Assembly (NCBI RefSeq): GCF_019900845.1
Contig: NZ_CP074570.1
Location: 558,001 to 622,000, forward strand
Length of the DNA stretch: 64,000 bases
DNA from: Paraneptunicella aestuarii
GTDB taxonomy: Bacteria; Pseudomonadota; Gammaproteobacteria; Enterobacterales; Alteromonadaceae
Direction of reading: 5' to 3'
Shown here: piece by piece, positions 23,202-37,935 of the stretch
Layout: each line of letters begins with the position of its first letter
Numbering within the stretch: the stretch's first letter is position 1
The notes under the pieces: model-generated
The model's database searches: none
What the model saw: the letters and a program-made list of their open reading frames with translations, nothing else
What the model was told of the DNA's origin: nothing
Position numbers and translations under genes: made by a program

Positions 23202-23378
23202 CAGGTTATTGTTATTATTCAGCCTGTTTTCGCCACCCTAGCACAGATTTTAGTCCCTTGTTAAGTCCAGATTACACCGAAAGGTATGCTTTCTTATAAA
23301 TCGTTTAATCCTGATTTTATTAAGGTTAATTATTGAATTGTCATCACACTCACTCCCAGAGGAAATGAAGGTTTGAAC

Positions 23379-24017
23379 ATGCGTTGGCTGCTGGTAGCTT
23401 CCATGGGTATAATGCGCGGCATTCACTCAGCAATTAAAGACATTGTTTTGGAATTACGATTTAAAACACCTGCACAATGGACAGAGGCGGTTATGGATGA
23501 TTTCGATACATTCCTGATCGACCATGCGGCAGCAGAGAAAAAAGCCTCGGGCATGGCGATGTCCATGTTGTCTCATTACCCGGACAAAGAGCGTTTGGTA
23601 AAAGCCATGATTGACCTGTCAATTGAGGAAATGACACATTTTAGAAAAGTAGTGAAGTTGCTATATCAACGTGGGCTAACGCCGGGAGCCGATACCAAAG
23701 ACCCTTATGTAAACGAGTTTCGTAAGTCCTTTCGTAAGGGGAGCGATGTCTACCTGCTGGATCGGTTATTGGTCGGTGGCATCGTCGAAGCACGAGGTTG
23801 TGAACGTTTTGGTTTGGTCGCGGAAGCGCTGCCGGTTGGAAAAATGAAAGACTTCTATCAGGAAATTACCCAATCAGAAGCCAAGCATCATACGTTGTTT
23901 GTGGATTTGGCGGGCGACTATTTTGCTGAGGATGTGATTCAGGCTCGGTTGTCAGAGCTGCTTGATATTGAGGCAGAAATTGTTGCTGCTTTGCCTATTA
24001 GCGCTGCGCTTCACTAG
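23379..24017 (+). CDS. miaE: MiaE-like tRNA hydroxylase
   Basis: About 213 residues of the MiaE family, non-haem di-iron enzymes that hydroxylate the ms2i6A base at position 37 of tRNA. Ferritin-like metal ligands are visible: DHAAAEKKAS, SIEEMTHF (E..H), VEARGCERF and QSEAKHHTLF. ATG 23379 has GAAGG 8 bases upstream; a TTG two codons earlier is unlikely. The glycosyltransferase gene starts 21 bp after its stop. Confidence 0.9.
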   Translation: MRWLLVASMGIMRGIHSAIKDIVLELRFKTPAQWTEAVMDDFDTFLIDHAAAEKKASGMAMSMLSHYPDKERLVKAMIDLSIEEMTHFRKVVKLLYQRGLTPGADTKDPYVNEFRKSFRKGSDVYLLDRLLVGGIVEARGCERFGLVAEALPVGKMKDFYQEITQSEAKHHTLFVDLAGDYFAEDVIQARLSELLDIEAEIVAALPISAALH

Positions 24018-24038
24018 TTTTACCCGGCTGAATCTGGT

Positions 24039-25256
24039 TTGTCTGAACGCGCTGTTACTCAATATCTGACTCAATATGCCGAAGTGGAATGTATGCTGTT
24101 ACATTCTGCTCCTGCGTTTCATTATCAGGCTTCGGTTGTCATACCTGCTTATAAAGAAAGCACCACATTTTTACAGCGGTTTCTACAGCAGTATGGTGAG
24201 CAATCTGTGTTATTGATTGCCGTCGTAAACCAGCCCGATACCGATGACAACATCACCCCTCAATCCGATTTATGTGAGTTTATAGCCTCTTCTTTCGAGC
24301 TGCGTTGGCAGCATGAAAATATTGCCTTGTACCATCAATTTTCAGGAAATATTGGTATTTTGTTAGTCGACAGATTTTCCACAGAGCGACGAATTCCTGC
24401 TAAACAAGGTGTGGGCTTAGCCCGAAAGATTGGTGCCGATATCGCGAGTTATTTAATTGCACAGAAGCAGATAGATTGCCCCTGGGTTGGTTCAACCGAT
24501 GCCGATGCGATTTTGCCCCAGGACTATTTTGCTCAACTTAACAGTAAACACCTGGCAGGAGCGAAAGCGGCAACATTTGCTTTTTCTCATATAGTGAATG
24601 GTGATCCGAGCATTTTTTCTGCCACACGTTTGTACGAACAATGGCTACATTACTACAAGAAGGGCTTGGCTTGGGCGGGCTCACCTTATGCCTTTTATAC
24701 AATAGGTAGCTGTTTGGCCTTTGATTATCAGGGCTATTGCCAGGTGCGAGGTTTTCCTAAACGAGCGGGTGGAGAAGACTTTTATCTGCTGAATAAAATG
24801 GCCAAGTTAGCACCTGTTGTTGAGTTGGATGCCTGTATTCATTTGCAATCTCGCGTGTCGGATCGTGTTCCTTTTGGTACAGGGCCTGCGGTGCAAAAAA
24901 TAATAGAACAGCAAAGCGACGAAACGCAATATCTGGTTTATAACCCGCAGGTATTCGTGCAGTTAAAGTCATTGTTGCAGTTGTTTAATACTCTATTTGA
25001 ATCTTGCTCTAACGAGAGCTTGCCGGATTGGATGAATGCATTGTCGCAGGCTTCCAGAAATGCACTAATGCAATCCAGTTTTGAACAGGCCGTGTTAAAA
25101 ATTAAAGGTAATTGCAAAAACCAACATCAATTCTTGCAGCAAGTGCATGGTTGGTTCGATGGGTTTCGAACATTGAAATACATCCATGCACTAGAAAATG
25201 ATTTTTCCCCTGTTTGTTTGCAACAGGCCCGTGAAATCGCTCCTTTTGAGTTTTAA
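24039..25256 (+). CDS. Family 2-like glycosyltransferase
   Basis: 405 residues if the TTG at 24039 is used; ATG 24093 is an alternative just before the fold. GT-A signatures: SVVIPAYKES opens the Rossmann part, STDADAILP is the metal/nucleotide-sugar DxD region, and GGEDFYLLNKMAKL is the acceptor-side ED motif. The C-terminal ~120 residues are helical and unrecognised. No transmembrane helix is evident. No neighbouring glycan genes exist, so donor and acceptor are unknown. It is probably co-transcribed with miaE. Confidence 0.75.
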   Translation: MSERAVTQYLTQYAEVECMLLHSAPAFHYQASVVIPAYKESTTFLQRFLQQYGEQSVLLIAVVNQPDTDDNITPQSDLCEFIASSFELRWQHENIALYHQFSGNIGILLVDRFSTERRIPAKQGVGLARKIGADIASYLIAQKQIDCPWVGSTDADAILPQDYFAQLNSKHLAGAKAATFAFSHIVNGDPSIFSATRLYEQWLHYYKKGLAWAGSPYAFYTIGSCLAFDYQGYCQVRGFPKRAGGEDFYLLNKMAKLAPVVELDACIHLQSRVSDRVPFGTGPAVQKIIEQQSDETQYLVYNPQVFVQLKSLLQLFNTLFESCSNESLPDWMNALSQASRNALMQSSFEQAVLKIKGNCKNQHQFLQQVHGWFDGFRTLKYIHALENDFSPVCLQQAREIAPFEF

Positions 25257-25334
25257 GACGAATTTATTAGTTAATGTAAATATTTGAGTTACAAATTACG
25301 CTTGGGTTTGTGTATAAAAACTACACAATGTGAG

Positions 25335-25566
25335 TAACCTGAACCCGGGATAAGAAGTACCTTCCAGCACTGCTAAATCCGTGCCTCTCAGCGTTATATT
25401 TGTGGTAAATAGAATGGCTATTCACTCACAAAAAAGCCTTGATAGGCACGGATTTATCAGCACTGTACCTATAAAAGCTATTTCATATGGTTAACATAAT
25501 GATTTTATTAAATAAATCTTATGGAATTCTAGGAATGACGATATTTCTTATCCCGAGTTCAGGTTA
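25335..25566. mobile_element. MITE-like element, 232 bp
   Basis: Terminal inverted repeats 25335-25356 and 25545-25566: 22 bp, one mismatch, outer end TAACCTGAAC and inner end GGGATAAGAA. Inside is a second pair: CTAAATCCGTGCCT (25373-25386) against AGGCACGGATTTAT (25444-25457). No coding capacity, so it should be moved in trans by a transposase not present here. No clear target-site duplication found. Confidence 0.7.
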
Positions 25567-25693
25567 AGTGATTTTTCAGCCATATCATCCAGTTATGTGA
25601 TAGGTAAAAATATTACAGTAAAATGTTGGACTCACTGAATTACCTGTCCTTAGACTGTCCCCTCCTTCAAACACACAACTGAAGTAAACACAC

Positions 25694-28102
25694 ATGAAAA
25701 CAAAAATCGCAACTATGGTTATAGCTGCGCTAGGCACAGGTTTGTCTACCGCTTATGCCCAAACTGAAGAGTCGCAACAGGCTGGAATGGAAAAGATTTC
25801 AGTTGTTGGTATGCGCACGCCGCTTCGTTCTTTAGGTGACTCTCCTGTTCCAGTGGATATGCTTTCTGCTGACGAGCTGACTCAAACAGGATTTACCGAA
25901 TTGAACCAAATGGTTGCAGCGTTAATTCCGTCTTATAACTTCCCTAAACCTTCAGTAACGGATGGCACAGACCACGTTCGCCCTGCGACCTTGAGAGGCA
26001 TGAGCCCGGATCAGGTGTTGGTGTTGGTGAATGGTAAGCGTCGTCATACTTCCGCGTTGGTAAACGTTAATGGTTCGATTGGTCGTGGTTCCAGTGCGGT
26101 TGATTTGAATACGATTCCACCCAATATGATTAAGCGTATTGAAGTGTTGCGTGATGGTGCGGCAGCTCAGTATGGTTCAGATGCGATTGCTGGTGTGATT
26201 AACATTGTATTGCGTGATGATGATAAAGCCGAAGCCGGCTGGAATTACGGTGCTTACAGTGAAGGCGATGGTATCTCCAGCACGATTCAAGGCAATGTGG
26301 GATTGTCTGATGATGATGGTTTTATTCACATTGCTGCGCAACACCGCAACAAGCAGGCCACTAACCGTGCCGGTTTAGACCCTCGTCAACAGTATCTGGA
26401 AATTGATGGTCAGCCTGATCCTCGCGAAGCCGATTTTGATCGTTTGAACCATCGCTTTGGTGATGCCGATGTGGAATCAACCAGTTTCTTTATTAACGCC
26501 GGTCATAACGATGGGTCAGACGGTTTGTTCTATTTCAATACCAGTTATGAAAGCCGTGACGGTGAAGCGGGTGGTTTCTATCGTCGAGCATTGGACAGCC
26601 GTAACGTCCCGGAAATTTATCCTGATGGCTTCCTGCCTCTTATTGTGTCGGACGTGACTGACTATGCTACAACTGTGGGTTACAAGTATGAGCCGGGTGA
26701 AACAACTTTCGACTTTAGTGTGACTTATGGTGGCAACGAGTTTGACTTCGGCGTTGAGAACAGTCTGAACACTTCTTTGGGCGCGCAAAGCCCAACGTCC
26801 TTTGATGCCGGTGGTTTGGAGTTTAACCAGCTTACCGTTAACTTTGATATGGCTTCCAGCATTGATGTTGGATTGATGAGCCCGTTAAGCGTGGCCTTTG
26901 GTATCGAATACCGCGATGAAACCTATAAGGTTAAAGCCGGTGAGGAAGCGTCTTACATTAATGGTGGAGTTGCTGATCAGTTTGGTGGTATTGCGTCAGT
27001 AGGTTCTCAGGTTTTCCCAGGCTTCCGCCCAGGTGATGCCAGCAAAAACTCCCGCGACAGCTATTCCCTCTATGGTCAGGTTGATCATTACGTTACGGAT
27101 GACTTATTGTTATCTGCGGCATTGCGTTTTGAAGACTACAGTGACTTTGGCAGCACCACTAATGGGAAACTTGCTTTGCATTACCATGTGAATGATATGG
27201 TGTCGATTCGTTCTGCGGTAAGCACTGGATTCAGAGCGCCCTCTTTAGCGCAGGCTTATTATTCTACAACTGCGACCATTTTCATTGATAGCATTCCTAA
27301 TGAAGTGAAAACCTTCCGCGTTGATGATCCTGCGGCTATCGCCTTGGGCGCAGAGCCACTTGATGCTGAAGAGTCGATGAACTACAGCGCCGGTATTGTG
27401 ATCACGCCTGTGCCGCAGTTGGAAATCTCCCTGGATTACTACCGCATTGATATTGATGATCGTATTGTGTTGTCAGATAACATTCGTGGCGCAGCGGTTC
27501 AGGAAATTTTGGAGAACAACGGTTACTTTGGTATCAACGGTGGCCGCTACTTCACTAACGCAATCGACACTGAAACCTCAGGATTGGATTTCGTTGCCAG
27601 TTATTTGTGGGACATTAATAACGACTGGAATGCCAATATCACCTTTGGCTGGAATATCAACGATGTCGATATTACCCGCATTGCTGCTAATCCTTCCGAG
27701 CTAGATCCTCTAGGCCCTAATGCCAAACGTTTTGGACGTAGCGAGTTGGCTTTGATCGAAGAAGCGCAACCTAAGAGCAAAGGCAATTTAGCCATTAGCT
27801 TACAAGGCGGACAATGGGGTGGGTCTTTGGTGGTAAGACACCATGGTGAATACACAACTCGTCATTCATCGAATGAAGAGCGTGACCAGACTTTTGGTTC
27901 TGAAACTGAAGTGGACTTGGAAGCTCGCTATCAGTTGGATGAAAACTGGCAGTTTGCGTTAGGGGTTAACAACCTGTTTGATGCGACGCCTGACCGCACT
28001 ATTGATGCGAACAACTTCAATGGTATTTTCCCATATAGCTCCATGTCGCCATTCGGTTACAACGGCAGCTATTATTATGGAAAAGTGAAGGTAAGTTTCT
28101 AA
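25694..28102 (+). CDS. TonB-dependent outer membrane receptor
   Basis: 802 residues. Signal peptide ends at about residue 22 (STAYAQ). The plug domain spans about 40-160, with LRGMSPDQVLVLVNGKRRH and the family-typical IEVLRDGAAAQYGSDAIAGVINIVL. The remainder is a 22-stranded barrel that ends in YYGKVKVSF, with the C-terminal aromatic required for outer-membrane insertion. A TonB box-like stretch (EKISVVGMR) follows the signal. Substrate is not predictable; no SusD or hydrolase partner lies adjacent. A 153-bp repeat begins at its stop codon. Confidence 0.92.
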   Translation: MKTKIATMVIAALGTGLSTAYAQTEESQQAGMEKISVVGMRTPLRSLGDSPVPVDMLSADELTQTGFTELNQMVAALIPSYNFPKPSVTDGTDHVRPATLRGMSPDQVLVLVNGKRRHTSALVNVNGSIGRGSSAVDLNTIPPNMIKRIEVLRDGAAAQYGSDAIAGVINIVLRDDDKAEAGWNYGAYSEGDGISSTIQGNVGLSDDDGFIHIAAQHRNKQATNRAGLDPRQQYLEIDGQPDPREADFDRLNHRFGDADVESTSFFINAGHNDGSDGLFYFNTSYESRDGEAGGFYRRALDSRNVPEIYPDGFLPLIVSDVTDYATTVGYKYEPGETTFDFSVTYGGNEFDFGVENSLNTSLGAQSPTSFDAGGLEFNQLTVNFDMASSIDVGLMSPLSVAFGIEYRDETYKVKAGEEASYINGGVADQFGGIASVGSQVFPGFRPGDASKNSRDSYSLYGQVDHYVTDDLLLSAALRFEDYSDFGSTTNGKLALHYHVNDMVSIRSAVSTGFRAPSLAQAYYSTTATIFIDSIPNEVKTFRVDDPAAIALGAEPLDAEESMNYSAGIVITPVPQLEISLDYYRIDIDDRIVLSDNIRGAAVQEILENNGYFGINGGRYFTNAIDTETSGLDFVASYLWDINNDWNANITFGWNINDVDITRIAANPSELDPLGPNAKRFGRSELALIEEAQPKSKGNLAISLQGGQWGGSLVVRHHGEYTTRHSSNEERDQTFGSETEVDLEARYQLDENWQFALGVNNLFDATPDRTIDANNFNGIFPYSSMSPFGYNGSYYYGKVKVSF

Positions 28103-28251
28103 ATACCTGTTCCAAACTATCAGTCACCTGTAGAGAATTAGGAGCAAACCCTCAGCCGCAGGGAAGCGGCTGTGGAGCCTACATGGAAGTATCCACGGCG
28201 AGTTTGCGATAAATCTCTATGGGTGACTGACAATTAAACACTGCTATTTAG
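28099..28251. repeat. 153-bp direct repeat, copy A
   Basis: Identical, except one base, to 29014-29166. Internally palindromic: ends CAGTCACC and GGTGACTG, with a CAGCCGC-AGGGAA-GCGGCTG hairpin in the middle. It starts at the TonB receptor stop codon. The two copies flank the DUF1697 gene. Confidence 0.85.
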
Positions 28252-28262
28252 TAGAGATAAAG

Positions 28263-28350
28263 CAGCGCCTGTATACGATTTTTACTTTGTTAGAGACTTT
28301 TATTGACGCGAAACAGTCTCTATTTTGTGTCGGTCGTATACGGGTTGCTG
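28263..28350. repeat. Structured inverted-repeat element
   Basis: Outer arms 28263-28278 and 28334-28350 share TGTATACGA / TCGTATACG and CAGC / GCTG ends. Inner arms AGAGAC (28292-28297) and GTCTCT (28316-28321). Possibly a small palindromic repeat or transcript terminator next to copy A. Confidence 0.45.
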
Positions 28351-28368
28351 TGTTACTGTTTTTTGAAT

Positions 28369-28896
28369 TTACTTATCTTGTAGTAGGACTTGAAGTAAGC
28401 CTTGAAGTTTTAACATCGTATTTAGATTTCGGCCTGTACTTTTCACACCCAAACATCTTTCAATATTCGCCACCAGTTTTGAGCGGCCTATACCACTTGG
28501 AGCATGAAGATAGAAGACCTTGTCAATGACCTGATATTCCTCATCATTGGCAATGTAGGATGCAAGCTTATCTTGATTCAATCGTGGCGTTTCAGCACAA
28601 ATATAAAAATGGATGCTTTTACCGTCGTCAGACGAAAATGGACATAGACTGACTATTTTTTCAAACTCTTCACGCTTGAGTAGCATCAGCTCAGGCTCAA
28701 ACCCGAAAGCATCACCAATACTTCTTTTGAGATCTTTGGGAGCTGAATTTGAGCTAAAAACGACATTGCCGCTTTGAATATAAGTGGTGACGTTTTGAAA
28801 CCCTTGCTTGAGCAGCAAACTTTTCAATTCCTTCATTGGGATCAGGTTTTTACCACCGACATTGATGCCTCTGAGGAGTAAAATATAAGTGTCCAT
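28369..28896 (-). CDS. DUF1697 family protein
   Basis: About 175 residues from the ATG at 28896; in-frame starts at 28905 and 28944 add non-conserved residues. The opening YILLLRGINVGGKNLIPMKEL and TTYIQSGNVVFSS are hallmarks of DUF1697. The C-terminus GIGRSKLVANIERCLGV fits too. Function unknown. It is bracketed by two 153-bp direct repeats and points against the flanking genes, so it may have been inserted or duplicated as a unit. Confidence 0.85.
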   Translation of the reverse strand: MDTYILLLRGINVGGKNLIPMKELKSLLLKQGFQNVTTYIQSGNVVFSSNSAPKDLKRSIGDAFGFEPELMLLKREEFEKIVSLCPFSSDDGKSIHFYICAETPRLNQDKLASYIANDEEYQVIDKVFYLHAPSGIGRSKLVANIERCLGVKSTGRNLNTMLKLQGLLQVLLQDK

Positions 28897-29013
28897 TATG
28901 TTCATTTCATCGCAGCTACTTAGGTTAATTGGAGCATTATACATATTGATTGGATGAGTGTGGTCTATGACACCAGCACCAAGGAAGCATTGGTTATTTT
29001 TGTTAAGTTAATG

Positions 29014-29166
29014 CTAAATACCTGTTCCAAACTATCAGTCACCTGTAGAGAATTAGGAGCAAACCCACAGCCGCAGGGAAGCGGCTGTGGAGCCTACATG
29101 GAAGTATCCACGGCGAGTTTGCGATAAATCTCTATGGGTGACTGACAATTAAACACTGCTATTTAG
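29014..29166. repeat. 153-bp direct repeat, copy B
   Basis: Second copy, offset 915 bp from copy A with one substitution. Here the central stem is a perfect 10-bp pair (CCACAGCCGC / GCGGCTGTGG). It lies 110 bp before the kinase gene, within its upstream region. Confidence 0.85.
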
Positions 29167-29208
29167 AAGGTTCGTTGTGTAATGTGTATGTGACTGTATA
29201 ATCTACTC

Positions 29209-29258
29209 GTTATGGTTTATATTTTGTCCATTCGAATGCCTTTATAAATAACCATAAC
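29209..29258. promoter_or_regulatory. Inverted repeat upstream of the kinase gene
   Basis: GTTATGGTT (29209-29217) and AACCATAAC (29250-29258), perfect 9-bp arms 32 bp apart, directly before the start codon. A TATAAT at 29197-29202 could be the -10 element; no good -35 was found. The arms could bind a regulator such as the FHA/winged-helix protein of this locus. Confidence 0.4.
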
Positions 29259-29275
29259 AGAATAGGCTTGGACTT

Positions 29276-32200
29276 ATGGAAGCGGTAAACGCTCATGTTG
29301 ATATCCTGACTTTCTTCAAATCAAATTATTACCAGCTACTTGAGAAAATAGGCGAAGGTGGATTTGGCCAAGTGTATAAAGCGATACAGCTTAGTACGCA
29401 ACAGTTAGTGGCCATCAAATTTTTGTGTCTGCCTGAAAACGTTTCTGAAGAAAAAAAGTATCGTTACATAGAACGTTTTCATCGTGAAGTTGATCTGATA
29501 AGGCGTTTAAATCACCCCAATATCGTGCGGTTAATGGATAAAGGGCAGCAGGATGAGTTGCTGTATGCCGTTTATGAGTATATTGACGGACAATCCTTAC
29601 GTGAGCATTTAGCTGATTCTGGCTCATTGGAGCCGTCACTTGCTGCCGAAGTAATGGCAAATGTTCTGGATGCGCTCGCCCACGCCCATGAGATGGGCGT
29701 GATTCATCGAGACATTAAACCTGCCAACATCATGCTGTATCAAGTCGGCGCTAAGATTCATGTGAAGGTGTTGGATTTTGGTATCGGAACCTTAAGGTAT
29801 GAAGCTCGTCAGCTCGACTACAAAAGCATAACCCTAACCCAGGAAACGTTGGGTACACCTTCTTATAGCGCTCCGGAGCAACTGAGGGGGGAGCCGCCTG
29901 TTCCTCAAACCGATATTTACGTTTGGGGATTAGTGTTTCTTGAGTGTCTTACGGGTAAACCTGCTGTTTCAGGTAGCAGTCTAGCGGCCGTTTTTCACCA
30001 GCAACTCAGTCAGTCAAACGTTCCTCTTGGGGTGTTGGCGGGTCATGAATCTGCGGGCTTGTTACGCCGAGTTTTAAATAAAAGAGCTTCGGAACGACCT
30101 GGCGATACTCTCAGGCTTTATCAGGAGTTTAAGAGGTTAAACTTTTCGAACTTGGTTGGAGAGTTGAATTCTGGGGCTAAATCTCAGTCGGATGAGATAT
30201 ACGACTATGATGACTCTACTCAGATTGTTGATGCGCGATTGTCTTATACACGCCTGACCGAGCGTAGGCAGATATCGGTACTTAGTGTCATCATCAGTAT
30301 TGAACAAGACGACGGGGTTAACCATGAGGAACAAGATGTTCTGGATGCGTTATTGATCGACAAAATGCAGCAGTGTATTGATATAGCGATACGCTATGGT
30401 GCTTATCATGTGGGTAATCTGGGAGACACCCTGTTATTTTACTTTGGTTATCCGCAAGTCACTGAAAACGACAGTCGCCTATGTGCTCGCACGGCTTTGG
30501 AAGTCATGAGCAATATTCGTCAGAAGAATGCATTGTTGAAGCAAAAGCAAGGGTTAATCTGTTATGCCCAAATGGGGATTCAAGTTGGTCTGATGCTAAG
30601 TTTTGCTAACAATCAGCCCCAGGGTAAAACCGCAAACGATGCCATGAAACTCAGCCGTAAGGCATTACCCAGCCAAATACTCTGCACTGAAAATGTAAAG
30701 CATTTGCTTGATGGCTATTTGCATTTTGAGTCAGGAAATTCAGAGACAGACGATACACATTCAAGTGAGCCTGCTTTTGTGTTGCGAGGGGAGCGTCAAC
30801 TTGAGGCGTTCGGGTTTATTCGAGGTACTCGCAAAAACCCGATCTTTATTGGACGTGAAGCGCAACTCAAAATGCTGACATCTTTGTTATCTACGTCAAG
30901 ACAGAACTCTGTGGCTCCGTTGGCACATATTTATGGTGAAGCTGGAATAGGTAAATCCAGGTTGGTTTTTGAATTACGTAACCAATGCAGGGAATTCAGG
31001 CATCTGGTTGCTCAATGTTTGCCAGAACACAAGAACAATGCTCTTTATCCAATATTAACCTTGCTCAAGTTTAAATTTTCATTAGACGCAGTTTCGGCGG
31101 AAAAAGCGTTGTTTTTACTCAAGGAAGCAACGAAGAGAACAGGACTGTCTGAAAAGCAAAAGGAATACGGGCTGGTGGTATTGTCGGCATGGTTAAATTT
31201 GCCGTTGCATGAAACCAATCCTGCTGTGAATCTCACGCCTGAGATACAGAAGCAAAGTTTGTTCGATTTGATTGCACATTTGCTATGTCAGTCCTTCGAA
31301 TGGCGCCCGCTGGGAAAAGCGACAACGCAACATCTTTTTGTTTTTGAAGACATGCATTGGGCTGATCCAACCAGTCTCGATTTTATTAATCATCTGTTGC
31401 ATTCAAATGTCTTTATAAAGAATGGACATTGCTGGTTGGCGACTTCACGGGAAACTATTCCTGTGCAATTGGAGACTATTTCCTTTACTCAGGTTTTAGT
31501 GCCCAAATTAGCCAAAGAAGAAACCCTGGCATTTATTCAGTTCTTGTTTGATCAACAACCTGTCGCAACTCAATTACAAGAAACATTGCTTGATCGAACC
31601 GACGGCATCCCACTATTTATCGAAGAGCTCGCCTCATTCATGCGCAATCGTAATTTGGTGCATAAGGTAAATGGTGAATTTGATTTTGTCGATGGTTCAA
31701 AGCTCGCGTTATTACCGCTTACTTTGCGAGACTCGTTACAACAAAAACTCGATCAACTTCCCTATGGAAAAGATACAGCGCAACTCGCTGCGGCGATTGG
31801 AAGAGAGTTTGATTATCAATTATTAACTGACGCTTCTGAGAAGGACGAAGCCTCGATACAAAGGGATCTTAATGCGCTGTTAAGCGCTGAACTAGTGTAT
31901 CAGCAACGTAAAGTTGACGGAGATACTTATATCTTCAAACACGCATTGGTGAGGGATGCGGCTTACGATTCAATACCTGAGTTACAAAAAGCAATAGTAC
32001 ATGGCCAAATTGTTCAGTCTTTAAAGCGCTTATTTTCTCTTAACGACCCAGTTGAATTTGTTCCTGACAGCTTTAAAAAAACAGTCCAGGAATCAAGTGG
32101 TGTTGTCATACCATACGGTACGTTAGCTAAACATTGTTGGAAAGCTGACAACTACAAGTTAGCTGTAAACTTTTCGCTTTTCCATATCTCTAGAAACTTA

Positions 32201-33358
32201 TTGCTAAGTCAGTATACGGTTGCGCAGGAAAGCTGTTTATACATAAAAAACATGCTGCCAAATGATGACTCTACTAAGGCATTGTTACTTAATACTGAGA
32301 TCATGTTAAGTCAGACCCTGGTTGCTCAATTGGGGTATTCCAATGTCGTAGTAAAAGACTCTTATGAACAAGCGATGCGCTTATCTTCTGATTCCACTCA
32401 TTACAAAATATTAACTCAAATTAGCTATGGACTATTTTCTTTTTATGCATCGCAGGGAGACTTTTCGTCTGCGCTAAGTTATGCGAAAGCGTTAAAAGAA
32501 ATCTCAATACGTTATGGTGACAAGCAAGTTGAATTGATAGCTCAGATGTCTTTTGGGCTGACTTTGTTGTTAAAAGGGGAGCTTGATAAAGCTGAAGAAA
32601 ACCTACATCGGGCAATTGAATTGTCTGACAAGCTTGGCACCGATTCTTTCTTGTTGGAATACGGAGGTAATTTTGGTGGGTACAGTCGAGCATGGTATGC
32701 CTTGCTTCAAATGTTAAAAGGGAATAACGCATTGGCGTTAAGTTCCAAATCGGTCGCGATTAATAAGAGCCAAAATCACAAGCAAACATTGGCTTTTGTG
32801 AAAGGTTTTCCATTTGTAGAGCAGTTTGTTTCATCATTGCAACAAGCCAGCGAACAAGCTCAACAACTCATAGAGTTATCGGTTAGTTATCAATTGCATT
32901 TCTTCAAATTATTAGGAGACTTTTACTTATTGTGGGTAAAAGGTGTTGCGGATCTGTCCTCGTGGGATGAGCAACAATCTGAACAGTTTTTGGAGCAATT
33001 TGAAGCCGCCGGACTTTATTCATTCCTTCCTCGGTATTACGCCATGTCGGCAGAAATAAGTATTAGAAGAAGTGAGGTTAAGCAAGCACTGCAAAAGATT
33101 GATAAAGCGTTGTCTATATGCAAAGTGCAAGGGCACTTTTACTACGCTGAATTATACAGACTCAAAGCTGTCGCTTTTCATTTTCAGGGAGCAAGTTTCA
33201 CAAAGGTCAGACGTTGTCTGTTAGCTGCAAAAATAATTAGCGAGCAGCAAGGGGCAGTATTGTGGCGTGAAAAAGTGGCTGAAACAGGTAAACAACTCGA
33301 AATCGAATTGTTTGCAAACCAGAGACCATATACAGGCTCTAATTACAGCAAAGGATAG
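29276..33358 (+). CDS. Ser/Thr kinase - cyclase-like - AAA ATPase - helical repeat fusion protein
   Basis: 1360 residues. Hanks kinase at about 15-285: glycine loop IGEGGFGQVYKA, VAIKF lysine, VIHRDIKPANIML catalytic loop, DFG and GTPSYSAPEQ, all intact, so likely active. A class III cyclase-like region follows at about 325-480, with GAYHVGNLGDTLLFYFGYP; the first metal-binding Asp position reads SVIISI, so it is probably inactive. Next is a STAND-like ATPase (Walker A GEAGIGKSRL near 555, Walker B FVFEDMHWAD near 688). The last ~450 residues are TPR-like helices. The architecture resembles the TOMM-system kinase/cyclase fusions, but no TOMM genes are here. The next gene starts 9 bp after the stop, so it heads an operon. 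Confidence 0.88.
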   Translation: MEAVNAHVDILTFFKSNYYQLLEKIGEGGFGQVYKAIQLSTQQLVAIKFLCLPENVSEEKKYRYIERFHREVDLIRRLNHPNIVRLMDKGQQDELLYAVYEYIDGQSLREHLADSGSLEPSLAAEVMANVLDALAHAHEMGVIHRDIKPANIMLYQVGAKIHVKVLDFGIGTLRYEARQLDYKSITLTQETLGTPSYSAPEQLRGEPPVPQTDIYVWGLVFLECLTGKPAVSGSSLAAVFHQQLSQSNVPLGVLAGHESAGLLRRVLNKRASERPGDTLRLYQEFKRLNFSNLVGELNSGAKSQSDEIYDYDDSTQIVDARLSYTRLTERRQISVLSVIISIEQDDGVNHEEQDVLDALLIDKMQQCIDIAIRYGAYHVGNLGDTLLFYFGYPQVTENDSRLCARTALEVMSNIRQKNALLKQKQGLICYAQMGIQVGLMLSFANNQPQGKTANDAMKLSRKALPSQILCTENVKHLLDGYLHFESGNSETDDTHSSEPAFVLRGERQLEAFGFIRGTRKNPIFIGREAQLKMLTSLLSTSRQNSVAPLAHIYGEAGIGKSRLVFELRNQCREFRHLVAQCLPEHKNNALYPILTLLKFKFSLDAVSAEKALFLLKEATKRTGLSEKQKEYGLVVLSAWLNLPLHETNPAVNLTPEIQKQSLFDLIAHLLCQSFEWRPLGKATTQHLFVFEDMHWADPTSLDFINHLLHSNVFIKNGHCWLATSRETIPVQLETISFTQVLVPKLAKEETLAFIQFLFDQQPVATQLQETLLDRTDGIPLFIEELASFMRNRNLVHKVNGEFDFVDGSKLALLPLTLRDSLQQKLDQLPYGKDTAQLAAAIGREFDYQLLTDASEKDEASIQRDLNALLSAELVYQQRKVDGDTYIFKHALVRDAAYDSIPELQKAIVHGQIVQSLKRLFSLNDPVEFVPDSFKKTVQESSGVVIPYGTLAKHCWKADNYKLAVNFSLFHISRNLLLSQYTVAQESCLYIKNMLPNDDSTKALLLNTEIMLSQTLVAQLGYSNVVVKDSYEQAMRLSSDSTHYKILTQISYGLFSFYASQGDFSSALSYAKALKEISIRYGDKQVELIAQMSFGLTLLLKGELDKAEENLHRAIELSDKLGTDSFLLEYGGNFGGYSRAWYALLQMLKGNNALALSSKSVAINKSQNHKQTLAFVKGFPFVEQFVSSLQQASEQAQQLIELSVSYQLHFFKLLGDFYLLWVKGVADLSSWDEQQSEQFLEQFEAAGLYSFLPRYYAMSAEISIRRSEVKQALQKIDKALSICKVQGHFYYAELYRLKAVAFHFQGASFTKVRRCLLAAKIISEQQGAVLWREKVAETGKQLEIELFANQRPYTGSNYSKG

Positions 33359-33367
33359 ATAAAATCT

Positions 33368-34834
33368 ATGTTGCCAAAAATATTTAGTTTGTTCGTATTA
33401 TTAACGTTCGCTTTCTTGGGATTAATAGGGGAAGCCCTTGGAGCGAGTGAAAATTCCACTTCCTGTGTCAAACCATTTACTCATTGTCACTCTCAAGGCG
33501 CTACGGCACTTCCTGATAAATGGCGCTCTTCAGTATTGTTAGCGCCTTTCTCTCAAAATGGCTCAGACGAAGTTGTCAATAAGTTAGTAAGGGCTGATGT
33601 TATCGCTGATTACAGTGCAAATGCTCAATTGAGTCGAACTTATGAGGTAAATACTGGAAAAACAATTGAAACGCTATTTGTCACCAGTGGTAGTAACAAA
33701 AACAGAGCAGAAGTATTTCGTCTAACTGAACTTGATGACAATAAATATCAGTGTGAAAAGATTGCCGAAACTGATAAACGTTTTTCCCGATGGTTGCCAC
33801 CTTCTGCGAAGTGGGTGCGAAGTAAAAGTGATAATCAGTTTTTTGGACAGTTTAATTTAAGACAGATAGGTGCAACAAATAGTCAATCTGAAGATGGCTT
33901 GTTACCTTATTTAACCGGATTGTGGTGGAAGGTGCCGATAGAATTAATAAAATCGGAGGAAGGACACAAGGATGTTGCGAATTGGATCGTTTTTAGTAAA
34001 GAGACGAGATTGCCTTTTCGTATTATGAATGCTTCAAGGAAAGTTCAGTATATGCTGCCTTTATTTGGGGAATACTCTATCAGCTATTTTTTAGATGCAA
34101 GAGCAGTGAGTGGCACCAATTTATCTTCGATTAAATCCAATTGCATGTCAGGTGAGCGTGTCTCAGGCTCGTCACTTGATTTTTCTGATGCCATTCCCGG
34201 ATTAAACTTCTTACCCCAATTAGAAACATCGGATGTTTTACCCTCTTTCCAACATTCGTTTAAATCGAACGCATTAATGACACCAATCAGTGTGGATGAA
34301 ATGCCTTTTCCGACATTGATTAAATATGACTATGACAATGTTCGCATGTATACCACTCTTTTTACCGATAACGGCAATCCTGGTAGTGCGGCTTTTTTGC
34401 TCAAAGATAAAGGACGCCTCTCTAATTGCCAAGGCATTGATATAGGAATACATCCCACGACATTAGGCGCTCCTCAAAGAGGGTGGATGGAGAAAGGAGG
34501 GTGTGAAATATCAAGTGTAATGACGGCTAAAGGACTGCAAAATACGCTTGTCATTGGGTGTCCTGTAAAAGGGGATTATCCCGGTGGTGTTAGAACTTTT
34601 TGGATGTGGTATAGCGCAAAAGGCACACCTTATAGCTTTATGGAAAGCGAGGCTGAACTAGGTATCGGAACAAGTTTGGCGTTGGCTGACTATTATGATT
34701 GGTCTCAAGGGAATACCAAACTAGTCGAAAGTGATGATGAAAACTTTTGTGAGAAAAAAATCCCCATCCATCAGACTAACAACATGCCTGCGGGTTGCTA
34801 TGGCTGTCATGGTGGTCAACCGTCAAACTTGTAA
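33368..34834 (+). CDS. Secreted protein ending in a CxxCH motif
   Basis: 488 residues. A signal peptide (LLTFAFLGLIGEALGA, cleaved about residue 25) precedes a large soluble domain of unknown fold with several cysteines. The last dozen residues, AGCYGCHGGQPSNL, contain CxxCH, the c-type haem attachment motif, at an unusual position for a cytochrome. Export fits haem attachment in the periplasm. Axial ligand and electron partner are not evident. It sits 9 bp behind the kinase gene and 16 bp before the nitrobindin-like gene, so it belongs to the same operon. Not recognised as a known family. Confidence 0.65.
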   Translation: MLPKIFSLFVLLTFAFLGLIGEALGASENSTSCVKPFTHCHSQGATALPDKWRSSVLLAPFSQNGSDEVVNKLVRADVIADYSANAQLSRTYEVNTGKTIETLFVTSGSNKNRAEVFRLTELDDNKYQCEKIAETDKRFSRWLPPSAKWVRSKSDNQFFGQFNLRQIGATNSQSEDGLLPYLTGLWWKVPIELIKSEEGHKDVANWIVFSKETRLPFRIMNASRKVQYMLPLFGEYSISYFLDARAVSGTNLSSIKSNCMSGERVSGSSLDFSDAIPGLNFLPQLETSDVLPSFQHSFKSNALMTPISVDEMPFPTLIKYDYDNVRMYTTLFTDNGNPGSAAFLLKDKGRLSNCQGIDIGIHPTTLGAPQRGWMEKGGCEISSVMTAKGLQNTLVIGCPVKGDYPGGVRTFWMWYSAKGTPYSFMESEAELGIGTSLALADYYDWSQGNTKLVESDDENFCEKKIPIHQTNNMPAGCYGCHGGQPSNL

Positions 34835-34850
34835 AAAAGGAAATAGCGCA

Positions 34851-35432
34851 ATGAGTAATATTAAACAACTAGGGCCGTTAAGTTATTTGGTTGGTACTTG
34901 GTCAGGTTTTGGGGTCGATAGAGCAAGCTCCGGTGAAGAATCGTCTTATTCGCATGAATTGATATTCGAACCCATTCCACAGTTACGTTTTTCTTCTGAA
35001 AATCAGGTGCTAAATGTACTCAGGTTCTCCAGTAAAATGTGGGGATCTGAAGACGATTCAGAATTCAATAATCTTATCCCTGTGTATGAAGAAAACGGTT
35101 ACCTGAGTTGGGTAGCTAACGATAATGACCCAACTATTGGCACTATTGTTAAACAAGTCTCAAACCCCAGAGGCTTAAGCTTTATGGCGGTTTCAGATGT
35201 CGTTTCCATTGCTGAAACAAGTGTGCAGATGAAATGCGATAGAGAGCAATTACCTTATGGTGGGATTATGCAGTCACCCCAGCTATCGGAAGTTTACCCT
35301 CCTGTTGTTGGTTATATCAGCAAATGGCAAGTGGATGGAAATCAGTTGATTGTAGAGGATACAACTGTCCTTAAAACTGATACAGGAGAGCCTTTTTATC
35401 AGACTGATAACTCAAAGTTGAAAAGGTATTAA
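34851..35432 (+). CDS. Nitrobindin-like / FABP-type beta-barrel protein
   Basis: 193 residues from ATG 34851, with AAGGAAA 8 bases upstream; the longer in-frame start lies inside the preceding gene. It opens LGPLSYLVGTWSGFG, the GxWxGxG strand of the nitrobindin/THAP4 haem-binding barrel (DUF1794), and has alternating strand patterns to the end. No signal peptide, so cytoplasmic. Some canonical residues after the first strand differ, and a C-terminal haem-ligand histidine is not obvious, so ligand binding is uncertain. It may sense or carry haem, NO or a lipid for this locus. Confidence 0.6.
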   Translation: MSNIKQLGPLSYLVGTWSGFGVDRASSGEESSYSHELIFEPIPQLRFSSENQVLNVLRFSSKMWGSEDDSEFNNLIPVYEENGYLSWVANDNDPTIGTIVKQVSNPRGLSFMAVSDVVSIAETSVQMKCDREQLPYGGIMQSPQLSEVYPPVVGYISKWQVDGNQLIVEDTTVLKTDTGEPFYQTDNSKLKRY

Positions 35433-35624
35433 CCAACGTCTTCTTGGGATAAGGTAATGTTTTAACTAATGTAATGTCGGTGTAATTTAATAATGTATTG
35501 ATTTTCCTTAAATTGATGGCGGTCTCAATTAGGTCGCATTGGAAGAGTGAAATACTGATCTGATGTGTTCGAGGTTTATTCAAAAAAACCATTAATGTTA
35601 TTGCTATCAAAAAGGTAAATTTAT

Positions 35625-36677
35625 ATGAATCATGCTGAAAGTTTACATTCAAGAATTTCCAAAAGAATTAGTAAAATTAAAACTGAAGAAGATATGTTGG
35701 CTGTTATCGCTGAAAATCACCAAGATATCGCCGATACCTTTCAGTTAACGCAATCTGAAGCTGAAGATATGAAATCCGTGCCATTTGGTTTAGATACGGG
35801 GTTACTTCAAGAAGCTGAGGCTGCAAGCGATCAAAAACAAATTGTAAGGGCGTTTGAAAATATTCAAAATGCGATGACGGCGGCATCAGCTTCTAATAAA
35901 GCGATGCAAGGCCCGATTCATAGAATGTTAGTCAATGATTCCCCCTTTGATCAGGCTGACCTCATTTACGCAACGTTTGTCGCAAATCAGGCTACCTCTC
36001 AATCAAATAAGGATGTTGAAGTTTTTATGGCTGATATCAACCGTACGGAAGGCCCTAAGAGCGAAATGATGAAAGAATCACGCGAGAAGAGTTCTTTTGC
36101 GGATAATATGATGAATGCTATCTATGCGGGAATTGACGCTGCAACTCCTAAGTTGATTGTAGTCGCTTCTACGGCAGCTTCCGCAGCAATGAGTGCCGTG
36201 GTCGATATGTTTAAACAAACTTGCGAAGTGGCTGTTATTAACAAAAGTAGCAAAACGTTGGTATTGTCTTTAAAGGATAAAGGACAATATGACGTTCATG
36301 GCAAGGCTATCTCTACAGCAAACCGATTAAGTAAAGCTGTAAAAACAAGACATGGGTATTTGCCCATTACAACTATACTTACTGCTTCTTCTCGAAAGGC
36401 TGCGGCTTTTGGCCCTCAGATCGCCTTTTCATTTCATGTAGAAGATAACGAAGATGAAAGGCTGACAATTGCTATTCAAGCTCCGGTTTCAGGGAATAAT
36501 GTAATATCTGTTACAGACAAAAGTGCAAAATACTCAGCGGAGAATGTAGAAAAGGATGGAAACAGTAAACTTGAATGCAGTTATGAGTTTGGTAGTTTCA
36601 AGGTGGTGTCAAAGGTTAGCTCTTCAAGTGGTACTACCCCCAAAATGCTAGTGATTATTTCAGATAAGGATAGCTAG
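35625..36677 (+). CDS. Unrecognised 350-residue protein of the kinase locus
   Basis: Residues 1-170 are mainly helical and charged, without a signal peptide. A small-residue hydrophobic helix (PKLIVVASTAASAAMSAVV, about 174-193) could insert in a membrane. Residues 200-350 look all-beta: VAVINKSSKTLVLSLKDKG, then AAAFGPQIAFSFHVED and SYEFGSFKVVSKV. This recalls beta-sandwich pore-forming proteins (aegerolysin/actinoporin-like), but that is only a pattern-level impression. GGTAAA is the likely weak ribosome site at 35612. The gap to the previous gene is 192 bp. It may be the effector of the locus. Confidence 0.5.
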   Translation: MNHAESLHSRISKRISKIKTEEDMLAVIAENHQDIADTFQLTQSEAEDMKSVPFGLDTGLLQEAEAASDQKQIVRAFENIQNAMTAASASNKAMQGPIHRMLVNDSPFDQADLIYATFVANQATSQSNKDVEVFMADINRTEGPKSEMMKESREKSSFADNMMNAIYAGIDAATPKLIVVASTAASAAMSAVVDMFKQTCEVAVINKSSKTLVLSLKDKGQYDVHGKAISTANRLSKAVKTRHGYLPITTILTASSRKAAAFGPQIAFSFHVEDNEDERLTIAIQAPVSGNNVISVTDKSAKYSAENVEKDGNSKLECSYEFGSFKVVSKVSSSSGTTPKMLVIISDKDS

Positions 36678-36695
36678 ACTATATTTGCGAACAAT

Positions 36696-36718
36696 GGCTC
36701 CTGACAATTGCAGGAGCC
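36696..36718 (+). terminator. Hairpin after the 350-residue gene
   Basis: GGCTCCTG, loop of 7, CAGGAGCC: a perfect 8-bp stem 18 bp after the stop. No T-tract follows, so termination is uncertain. Confidence 0.45.
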
Positions 36719-36895
36719 GTCTACTAGCAATCTCAAGTGAAATCTCAAGTGAAAACAATGTGCTTCGTTCAGTGCCACTAAAGAGAGCCTGGTTTTACCC
36801 ATAAAACAACTACGCTGTAATGTCTGCGTAATGGATTTACCCCAGTTTTTTGGTAGATTTGCGGCTACGTAATATTAATCTGCTAAGAGAGCACT

Positions 36896-37870
36896 ATGGC
36901 GCAGCTATTGGTTAACGCTTCTCAAGAAAGCATTTATTTGACTAAATACCATTTATTTGGGCGCAAGCATCAGGTAGTGAATACTTACCTGGAACATCCA
37001 AATGTGTCTCGTATTCATATGTTGATTGAATGGAAGAATGGTGCTTGGGTTTTAAAAGACAAAAGCACAAATGGGGTGTGGCTTAACGATTCAAGAGTGC
37101 AAATGGAACAGGAATATCCACTGACGGTAGGGGATACTATTGTTCTACCCGAGAGCACCGATATTGCCTTTACAGTTGTTGATCTTGACCAACCTAAAGA
37201 TGTGCTTATTTCAAGTACTGAGAGCGGTGAATCTCAGGAAAATATTCCGAGAGTGATTTTTCTTGACCAATTAAACCTTCTTCCCGACGAACTTTCCCCT
37301 GAAATTGTTTTGTCTTATGACTCAGAAAACAGTACCTGGATGTGTGAAAATACTGAAAGTATGGTTGCTCACCCAATTGTTGAAGGCGATACGATACATT
37401 TTGGCAATAATATTTGGAAGTTTATTACTGGTGCAGACCAAAGTGATGTCCCTACGGCTGAATTGGAAGGTAATGAAGCGTTGGATTTGAAATATATATT
37501 TCGTATCAGCCAGGATGAAGAGTTGGCTGAACTGAAGATTAGAAATAAGGATTCTGTTATAGATTTGGATGTGCGTTCCCATCACTACCTTACCGCTCTT
37601 TTGGCGCGATATAAAAAGCAAGAACCTGAGCAAGATAATGGGCTTGATGAGTGTCTGAAAGGCTGGGTTTCGATTAAACAATTGTCTAAAGATTTGGGGC
37701 TTAATGAGAGCCATATCAATATTCAAATTCATCGAGCCAGAAAACAACTGATGGAACATTGTCAGCGTATTGGTTTAAATGTCCCAGATATCATTGAACG
37801 CAGAAGAGGCTATGTGCGTTTTGCGGCTGAGCAATTTAGCATTTTTAAGGGAGATGTGTTGGAAGCTTAG
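36896..37870 (+). CDS. FHA-domain protein with winged-helix-like C-terminus
   Basis: 324 residues. The N-terminal FHA domain (about 20-95) has the phosphothreonine-binding residues: FGRKH, SRIHM and STNGVWLND. The middle (about 100-230) may be a second, degenerate FHA-like region (PIVEGDTIHFGNNIW). The C-terminal ~80 residues (WVSIKQLSKDLGLNESHI, then IQIHRARKQLMEH and RRGYVRF) resemble a winged-helix DNA-binding domain of response-regulator type. It is therefore a likely phospho-dependent transcription regulator, and the natural reader of the Ser/Thr kinase at 29276. It starts 218 bp after the 350-residue gene. Confidence 0.75.
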   Translation: MAQLLVNASQESIYLTKYHLFGRKHQVVNTYLEHPNVSRIHMLIEWKNGAWVLKDKSTNGVWLNDSRVQMEQEYPLTVGDTIVLPESTDIAFTVVDLDQPKDVLISSTESGESQENIPRVIFLDQLNLLPDELSPEIVLSYDSENSTWMCENTESMVAHPIVEGDTIHFGNNIWKFITGADQSDVPTAELEGNEALDLKYIFRISQDEELAELKIRNKDSVIDLDVRSHHYLTALLARYKKQEPEQDNGLDECLKGWVSIKQLSKDLGLNESHINIQIHRARKQLMEHCQRIGLNVPDIIERRRGYVRFAAEQFSIFKGDVLEA

Positions 37871-37879
37871 GGGGGATGA

Positions 37880-37908
37880 CTGGTTTCCATATTGAGTATG
37901 GAAACCAG
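37880..37908. terminator. Hairpin between convergent genes
   Basis: CTGGTTTCCATA, loop TTGAG, TATGGAAACCAG: a perfect 12-bp stem just after the FHA gene and before the convergent methyltransferase gene. U-tracts are lacking on both sides. Confidence 0.55.
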
Positions 37909-37935
37909 ATAAAGTGCTGATAAAAGAGATGAAGC

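Follow-up and report, generated by a model that had tools for sequence, protein, structure and literature searches.

A possible reused kinase–FHA control unit with interchangeable cargo genes in an accessory locus of Paraneptunicella aestuarii

The 64,000-nucleotide stretch of the Paraneptunicella aestuarii genome analysed here (contig NZ_CP074570.1, positions 558,001 to 622,000; hereafter the window, with positions counted from its first letter) carries, between 29276 and 37870, a locus of five genes that opens with a large Ser/Thr kinase (P0001) and closes with an FHA-domain protein (P0005). We give about even weight to the reading that the locus is an accessory one under a reused kinase–FHA control unit with interchangeable cargo cassettes, the cargo here being the intervening genes P0002, P0003 and P0004. 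This reading draws on the family and motifs of the kinase, a conserved FHA partner, a kinase tree on which the cassette types are intermixed, a set of direct repeats and the placement of the locus in an accessory block. All five open reading frames (ORFs) were found in the sequence where the original prediction had placed them, on the same (+) strand of a 4.9 Mb genome in one contig. P0002 starts 9 bp after the kinase stop, 192 bp precede P0004 and 218 bp precede P0005, and because of these two gaps a single operon is not established.

The kinase and its FHA partner

P0001 (29276..33358, + strand, 1360 residues) combines a Ser/Thr kinase, a degenerate cyclase part, an AAA/STAND-like ATPase and TPR-like repeats, as judged from Pfam, TIGR03903 and a motif check. 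Its score against TIGR03903, the TOMM system kinase/cyclase fusion family, is 790.1 bits over residues 41-1330, above the NCBIfam cut-off of 705.75, and by this curated cut-off P0001 is a member. Of the 28 rows in our family alignment, 26 cover the glycine loop, catalytic lysine, HRD and DFG motifs, and every one of these keeps them; the Walker motifs are kept in all 28, in agreement with the original description of an active-looking kinase, an activity that we predict from these motifs. The fusion of cyclase, ATPase and TPR parts described with it stood in part: Pfam returned Pkinase at 173.2 bits, AAA_16 at 63.8 and TPR_12 at 31.0 (cut-off 30.1), and Guanylate_cyc reached only 17.7 bits, short of its cut-off of 21.9. 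The Asp of the FxDI motif, which we take to be the metal-binding site of class III nucleotide cyclases, is missing in 27 of 28 rows including that of the window (the 28th, from locus L050, is cut there), and the cyclase part is for this reason very probably non-catalytic. The large kinase gene of L050 is broken into two frames in its genome (L050:7955-12236).

P0005 (36896..37870, + strand, 324 residues) matches the FHA family PF00498 at 62.5 bits, and the phosphothreonine-binding residues G22, R23, S38, H41, N59 and G60 are invariant in all 13 aligned proteins. Two structure comparisons returned an FHA fold, with EmbR fourth in one and second in the other. The model of P0005, built from eight sequences, has a mean predicted local distance difference test score (pLDDT) of 75.5, and its C-terminal end consists of three strands, three helices and a hairpin, presumably the strand–helix order of an OmpR-type winged helix. 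The FHA half of the predicted FHA/winged-helix protein has a family and a fold match, and the winged-helix half is read from predicted secondary structure only.

The partnership of these two genes extends well beyond the window. We counted 28 kinase loci, comprising the window, two sets of 14 and 12 further loci, and L079; left out were the eight weakest of 22 matches (L032-L039, 21-26% identity), the fragments L016 (the same gene as L012/L050) and L017, and G097:C453, which was treated as the same stretch as L029. Of the first 27 loci, 15 have a P0005 homologue within the stretch that was fetched, as does L079, and in L041 one lies 7.6 kb from the kinase, just beyond the fetched stretch. An FHA gene is therefore found near the kinase in 17 of 28 loci, window included, a lower bound as at most about 10 kb was viewed per side. 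Among 196 genomes of the family, 12 have the kinase (E 1e-100) and 32 the FHA protein (E 1e-25); both are present in 11 of the 12 kinase genomes, against an FHA protein in 21 of the 184 others (Fisher p 4.5e-9, on the assumption that both searches drew the same 196 genomes), with the FHA gene on a different contig from the kinase in at least four of the 11 (G019, G030, G088, G170). Across 369 genomes of the class, a kinase at E 1e-150 was found only in the window genome and in G587. These homology-based counts indicate that the kinase–FHA link is real and wider than the original prediction, which had proposed the pairing from a single sequence, could know. At least one neighbour, the FHA gene, is thus conserved with the kinase in other genomes, and the refuting condition set by the original prediction does not apply to it. 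Recurrence of all five genes was not borne out: neither tblastn nor clustering placed P0002, P0003 or P0004 next to the kinase in any of the other 27 loci.

Related pairs occur with smaller kinases. The window genome has three FHA homologues, of which the two besides P0005 overlap with shorter kinase genes, over 1 and 17 bases; these pairs (L107:7320-10939 and L108:9009-12648) encode kinases of 874 and 886 residues with a TPR-like end. At L049:7664-17238 a shorter kinase relative overlaps an FHA gene and adjoins type VI secretion sheath genes. A sister species carries a P0005 homologue near a row of RebB (R-body) genes, with the large kinase not adjacent (L110:4424-9050).

Cargo in the slot after the kinase

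The slot that follows the kinase is filled in different ways among its relatives. YcaO genes (cluster c1, three members confirmed by Pfam) occur in 17 of the 28 loci, often accompanied by precursor-like proteins with Cys at or near the C-terminus; two of these proteins match TIGR03795 below its cut-off. In seven loci (L018, L020, L021, L022, L023, L047 and L079), from Vibrio, Pseudoalteromonas, Moritella and others, a CxxCH protein (cluster c9) directly follows the kinase and is itself followed by a small protein ending in Trp (L018:15469-16182, L020:13868-14227, L021:15371-16090, L022:15614-16315, L023:15615-16316, L047:18527-18790 and L079:958-1230). L022 and L023 are near-identical, so that six of six distinct c9 loci have the Trp ending. 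The small proteins of L018, L021 and L022 are mutually homologous, and several of the small proteins are unlike in sequence. A terminal Trp was found in 15 of 625 scanned ORFs; nine of these are the small proteins and their re-fetched copies, and the other ORFs account for 6 of 616. Four loci, L046, L049, L051 (at a contig end) and the window, have neither cargo type.

The cassette types interleave on the kinase tree, where three supported clades each contain more than one type. In one of them, the window and L019, a YcaO locus, form a pair (97/90) inside a four-row clade (100/100) completed by L018, which has c9, and L040, which has YcaO; c9 and YcaO loci are mixed again in L020/L043/L022-L023 (98/97) and in L047/L048 (99/95), in a tree whose bootstrap had not fully settled. 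The c9 family also has a life outside these loci. A homologue was found in 16 of 394 genomes of the order, two of them the Moritella kinase loci, and in the six of the other 14 that were inspected (L073-L078) no homologue of the large kinase stands beside it; c9 is on this account not tied to the kinase. One of these homologues lies ahead of a gene for LodA, a quinone-cofactor oxidase, and a flavoprotein gene (L077:9483-14142), and beyond the FHA gene of L018 a second CxxCH protein with an export-type start is followed by a laminin-G/FAD-oxidase protein (L018:17581-22618). The c9 profile found no match among solved structures.

In the window the slot is taken by P0002 (33368..34834, + strand, 488 residues, no family), which fits the secreted CxxCH protein originally described. 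It has a strongly hydrophobic N-terminus (hydropathy 2.19 over 19 residues), from which we predict that it is probably exported, and one CxxCH motif at residues 477-481 (codons 34796..34810, + strand), which makes a haem role possible. When the part beyond residue 26 was shuffled 20,000 times, any CxxCH arose in 0.3% of the shuffles and one near the C-terminus in 0.05%. The sole database relative is a 99% identical protein, among the 7995 scored candidates that share most words with it. Membership of c9 was considered and is not supported, as hhalign aligns nothing beyond the haem motif and the pairwise score was reached by 16 to 60 shuffles out of 200, a comparison of weak power with a single-sequence query. 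P0003 and P0004 were likewise compared with the Trp-ended small proteins with negative results, and P0003 ends in Tyr.

Direct repeats and the accessory block

The direct repeat TGTAAT-N5-YGTAAT occurs exactly twice in the window, as TGTAATGTCGGTGTAAT (35470..35486, + strand), 155 bp before P0004, and as TGTAATGTCTGCGTAAT (36816..36832, + strand), 80 bp before P0005; a copy with two mismatches, TGTAATGTGTATGTGAC (29178..29194, + strand), lies 98 bp before the kinase gene. A first-order Markov model expects 0.05 exact copies in the window and 0.013 in the Vibrio relative L018, which holds two; one of these precedes the FHA gene of that locus by 101 bp. A period of 11 bp is consistent with sites of the PhoB/OmpR type. 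In the same L018 stretch, a two-mismatch copy precedes the second CxxCH gene and an exact copy lies just after the laminin-G/FAD-oxidase gene. The other 25 loci have two exact copies in 514 kb, one within the L020 kinase gene and one in L043, and no copy at 0-1 mismatch lies in the promoters that precede the FHA homologues of L107, L108 and L110.

Several observations weigh against the control unit proposed here. No nearby FHA gene was seen in 11 of the 28 kinase loci, including nearly all of one kinase clade. The C-terminal part of P0005 has no Pfam match over cut-off, and both fold lists give FHA chains only, so that an OmpR-type match for this end was sought and not obtained. The repeat motif was derived from the window itself, which leaves L018 as the sole independent case, and the copy before P0004 shares sequence with a mechanical ORF of 93 codons on the opposite strand. 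In 37 upstream regions outside the window, the 5-bp spacer gave 5 matches, a number reached by 30 of 500 shuffles, against 6 at spacers 4, 9 and 11. One-mismatch sites are not enriched in the window genome (33 against 36 for the reversed control), and the 19 two-mismatch sites in the window compare with 13.7 expected and were reached by 10 of 100 shuffles. The spacer comparison and the genome-wide one-mismatch counts do not bear out a general operator, and we treat the TGTAAT repeats as a candidate operator limited to the window and L018 loci.

The locus lies inside a block of 14.7 kb (23202..37935, no strand assigned) that is missing at the same place in one sister species, where on L136 the homologues of the window genes up to 23201 and from 37936 neighbour each other, about 78 bp apart. 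The block was either gained in the window genome or lost in the sister. By Pfam it also carries MiaE, an unnamed gene, a TonB receptor and DUF1697, and a homologue of the TonB receptor sits elsewhere in the sister.

Proposed mechanism, alternatives and known systems

From these patterns we infer the following sequence of events. The ATPase/TPR part of P0001 would sense a cue, with the degenerate cyclase part serving structure or ligand binding, and the activated kinase would phosphorylate threonine in its own chain, in P0005 or in both. P0005 would read this phosphothreonine mark through its FHA domain, as EmbR does with PknH, and would then bind the 11-bp-period TGTAAT direct repeats ahead of three genes, those for the kinase, P0004 and P0005 itself, to switch the locus. 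P0002, exported and perhaps haem-bearing, would together with P0003 and P0004 be the regulated output, one of several swappable cassettes whose slot in relatives is filled by YcaO-type peptide-modifying genes or by a CxxCH protein and a Trp-ended small protein.

A simpler account is that kinase and FHA protein are a pair and that P0002-P0004 are unrelated genes inserted in a mosaic island. Their absence beside the kinase in all 27 other loci and the roughly 200 bp left free ahead of each of P0004 and P0005 are in keeping with chance neighbours. The 9 bp that separate P0002 from the kinase stop, the protein of the same build that fills this slot in seven relatives and the TGTAAT repeat ahead of P0004 speak the other way, and we regard mere insertion as unlikely.

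A locus of conflict or competition would instead make P0004 a toxin-like effector, released or expressed upon kinase activation, for example against phage or rivals. P0004 (35625..36677, + strand, 350 residues) agrees with the unrecognised protein of the original prediction in being an orphan with a hydrophobic stretch, here at residues 177-195 by hydropathy; its helical N-terminal half, which includes this stretch, and its beta-rich C-terminal half are read from a poor model. That architecture, the accessory block around the locus, the type VI secretion genes beside the FHA–kinase relatives in L049 and the RebB genes beside the FHA homologue in L110 are all in keeping with an effector. Against it, P0004 has neither homologue nor usable model: a database search that needs shared five-residue words returned only P0004 itself, none was found in 59 genomes, and the structure prediction called for earlier gave an unusable mean pLDDT of 41. 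A kinship with the beta-rich c25 proteins that precede YcaO in L029, L030 and L048 was also rejected, for although the C-termini look alike, hhalign was negative and 180, 471 and 186 of 1000 shuffles, respectively, reach the score. No PADLOC model matches P0002-P0005, and those that match P0001 (25 of 37 inspected) are to kinases, on the kinase domain, so that a defence system was set aside and an effector role for P0004 appears improbable.

The suggestion that the locus senses haem, redox or nitric oxide, with P0002 as c-type haem protein and P0003 as nitrobindin feeding a signal to the kinase, was weakened on closer study. P0003 (34851..35432, + strand) does have the predicted nitrobindin-like barrel, matching PF08768 (THAP4/nitrobindin-like) at 45.5 bits against a cut-off of 25, and its likelier start, judged from the sequence as the ATG at 34851 behind AAAAAAGGAAATAGCGCA, gives 193 residues and not 233. 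Near its C-terminus a CAG codon (35400..35402, + strand) encodes Gln where five of five aligned relatives have His, which we take to be the haem-holding residue. The alignment therefore suggests that P0003 has probably lost its usual haem ligand. In nitrobindins the haem is held by a proximal His, according to the part of PMC7915275 available to us. Alone, P0003 gave chance-like matches to solved structures; together with its relatives it matched At1g79260 at E 0.027 over the N-terminal part only, which left no solved structure on which to locate the haem His. The family match of P0003, the CxxCH motif and export-type N-terminus of P0002 and the CxxCH protein right after the kinase in seven relatives favour sensing. 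Since Gln replaces His and the cyclase part is degenerate, and with neither P0002 nor P0003 conserved beside the kinase, we find it distinctly unlikely.

The idea that P0001 is a left-over or trans-acting TOMM regulator serving a YcaO cluster elsewhere in the genome, favoured by its TIGR03903 membership and by the genome's single YcaO gene in a cluster with lanthipeptide-dehydratase-like and nitroreductase-like genes, is very unlikely, given that this cluster is 1 Mb away and that the 20 kb inspected there hold no repeat at 0-1 mismatch. The cluster itself (L070:2615-11978) contains split lanthipeptide-dehydratase-like genes, YcaO, a nitroreductase-like gene and ABC-transporter-like genes, and is probably a separate peptide natural-product cluster.

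Under the control-unit reading, the function of the large TOMM kinase becomes testable, through a conserved and probably DNA-binding FHA partner and a candidate operator in two loci. A large Ser/Thr kinase was noted beside NHLP-Burk TOMM precursors by Haft et al. 2010 (PMC2887384), whose text, in the portion available to us, does not explain its role and whose main text has 0 occurrences of FHA; the words kinase, FHA and cytochrome are all absent from the main text of PMC4603692. Our search, which most subscription journals lay outside, found no paper that brings YcaO together with an FHA domain and a threonine kinase, and none that has TOMM alongside YcaO, a cyclase and a threonine kinase. 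One control unit is here seen with at least two unrelated cargo types; in one of these a CxxCH protein is paired with a small protein ending in Trp, possibly the sign of a modification system not yet described. A bolder extension, which we hold to be a long shot, is that the kinase–FHA unit governs a family of protein- or peptide-modifying cassettes, in which YcaO would act on precursors ending in or near Cys and an exported c-type haem protein would oxidise the C-terminal Trp of its small partner, the window being an extreme member with both enzyme and substrate replaced (P0002 with P0003 or P0004).

Set beside known systems, P0003 resembles the nitrobindins and THAP4-like proteins in its family score and departs from them in the C-terminal Gln. 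P0002 has no detectable sequence relation to the c9 proteins past the haem motif, and it is like them in its position right after the kinase, its size, its export-type start and its single C-terminal CxxCH. Unlike TOMM-type loci, this one has no recognisable gene for YcaO, a precursor or a transporter among P0002-P0005 (Pfam found no YcaO there or in the ten nearest other genes, and precursor models such as TIGR03795 had no match in P0002-P0005 at E up to 1); the likeness lies in the kinase, which passes the curated family cut-off and has YcaO genes near 17 of its 28 relatives. The closest parallel to the unit as a whole is PknH–EmbR of mycobacteria, a kinase and an FHA transcription factor in the available portion of PMC4601284. 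P0005 differs in having its FHA domain first, the reverse order, and no BTA (TPR-like activation) domain by Pfam, and P0001 in being soluble-looking, with ATPase and TPR parts and a phosphorylation that is here conjectural. The two systems share a Ser/Thr kinase adjoining an FHA protein, in P0005 with a putative DNA-binding part, and EmbR is among the best FHA matches of P0005.

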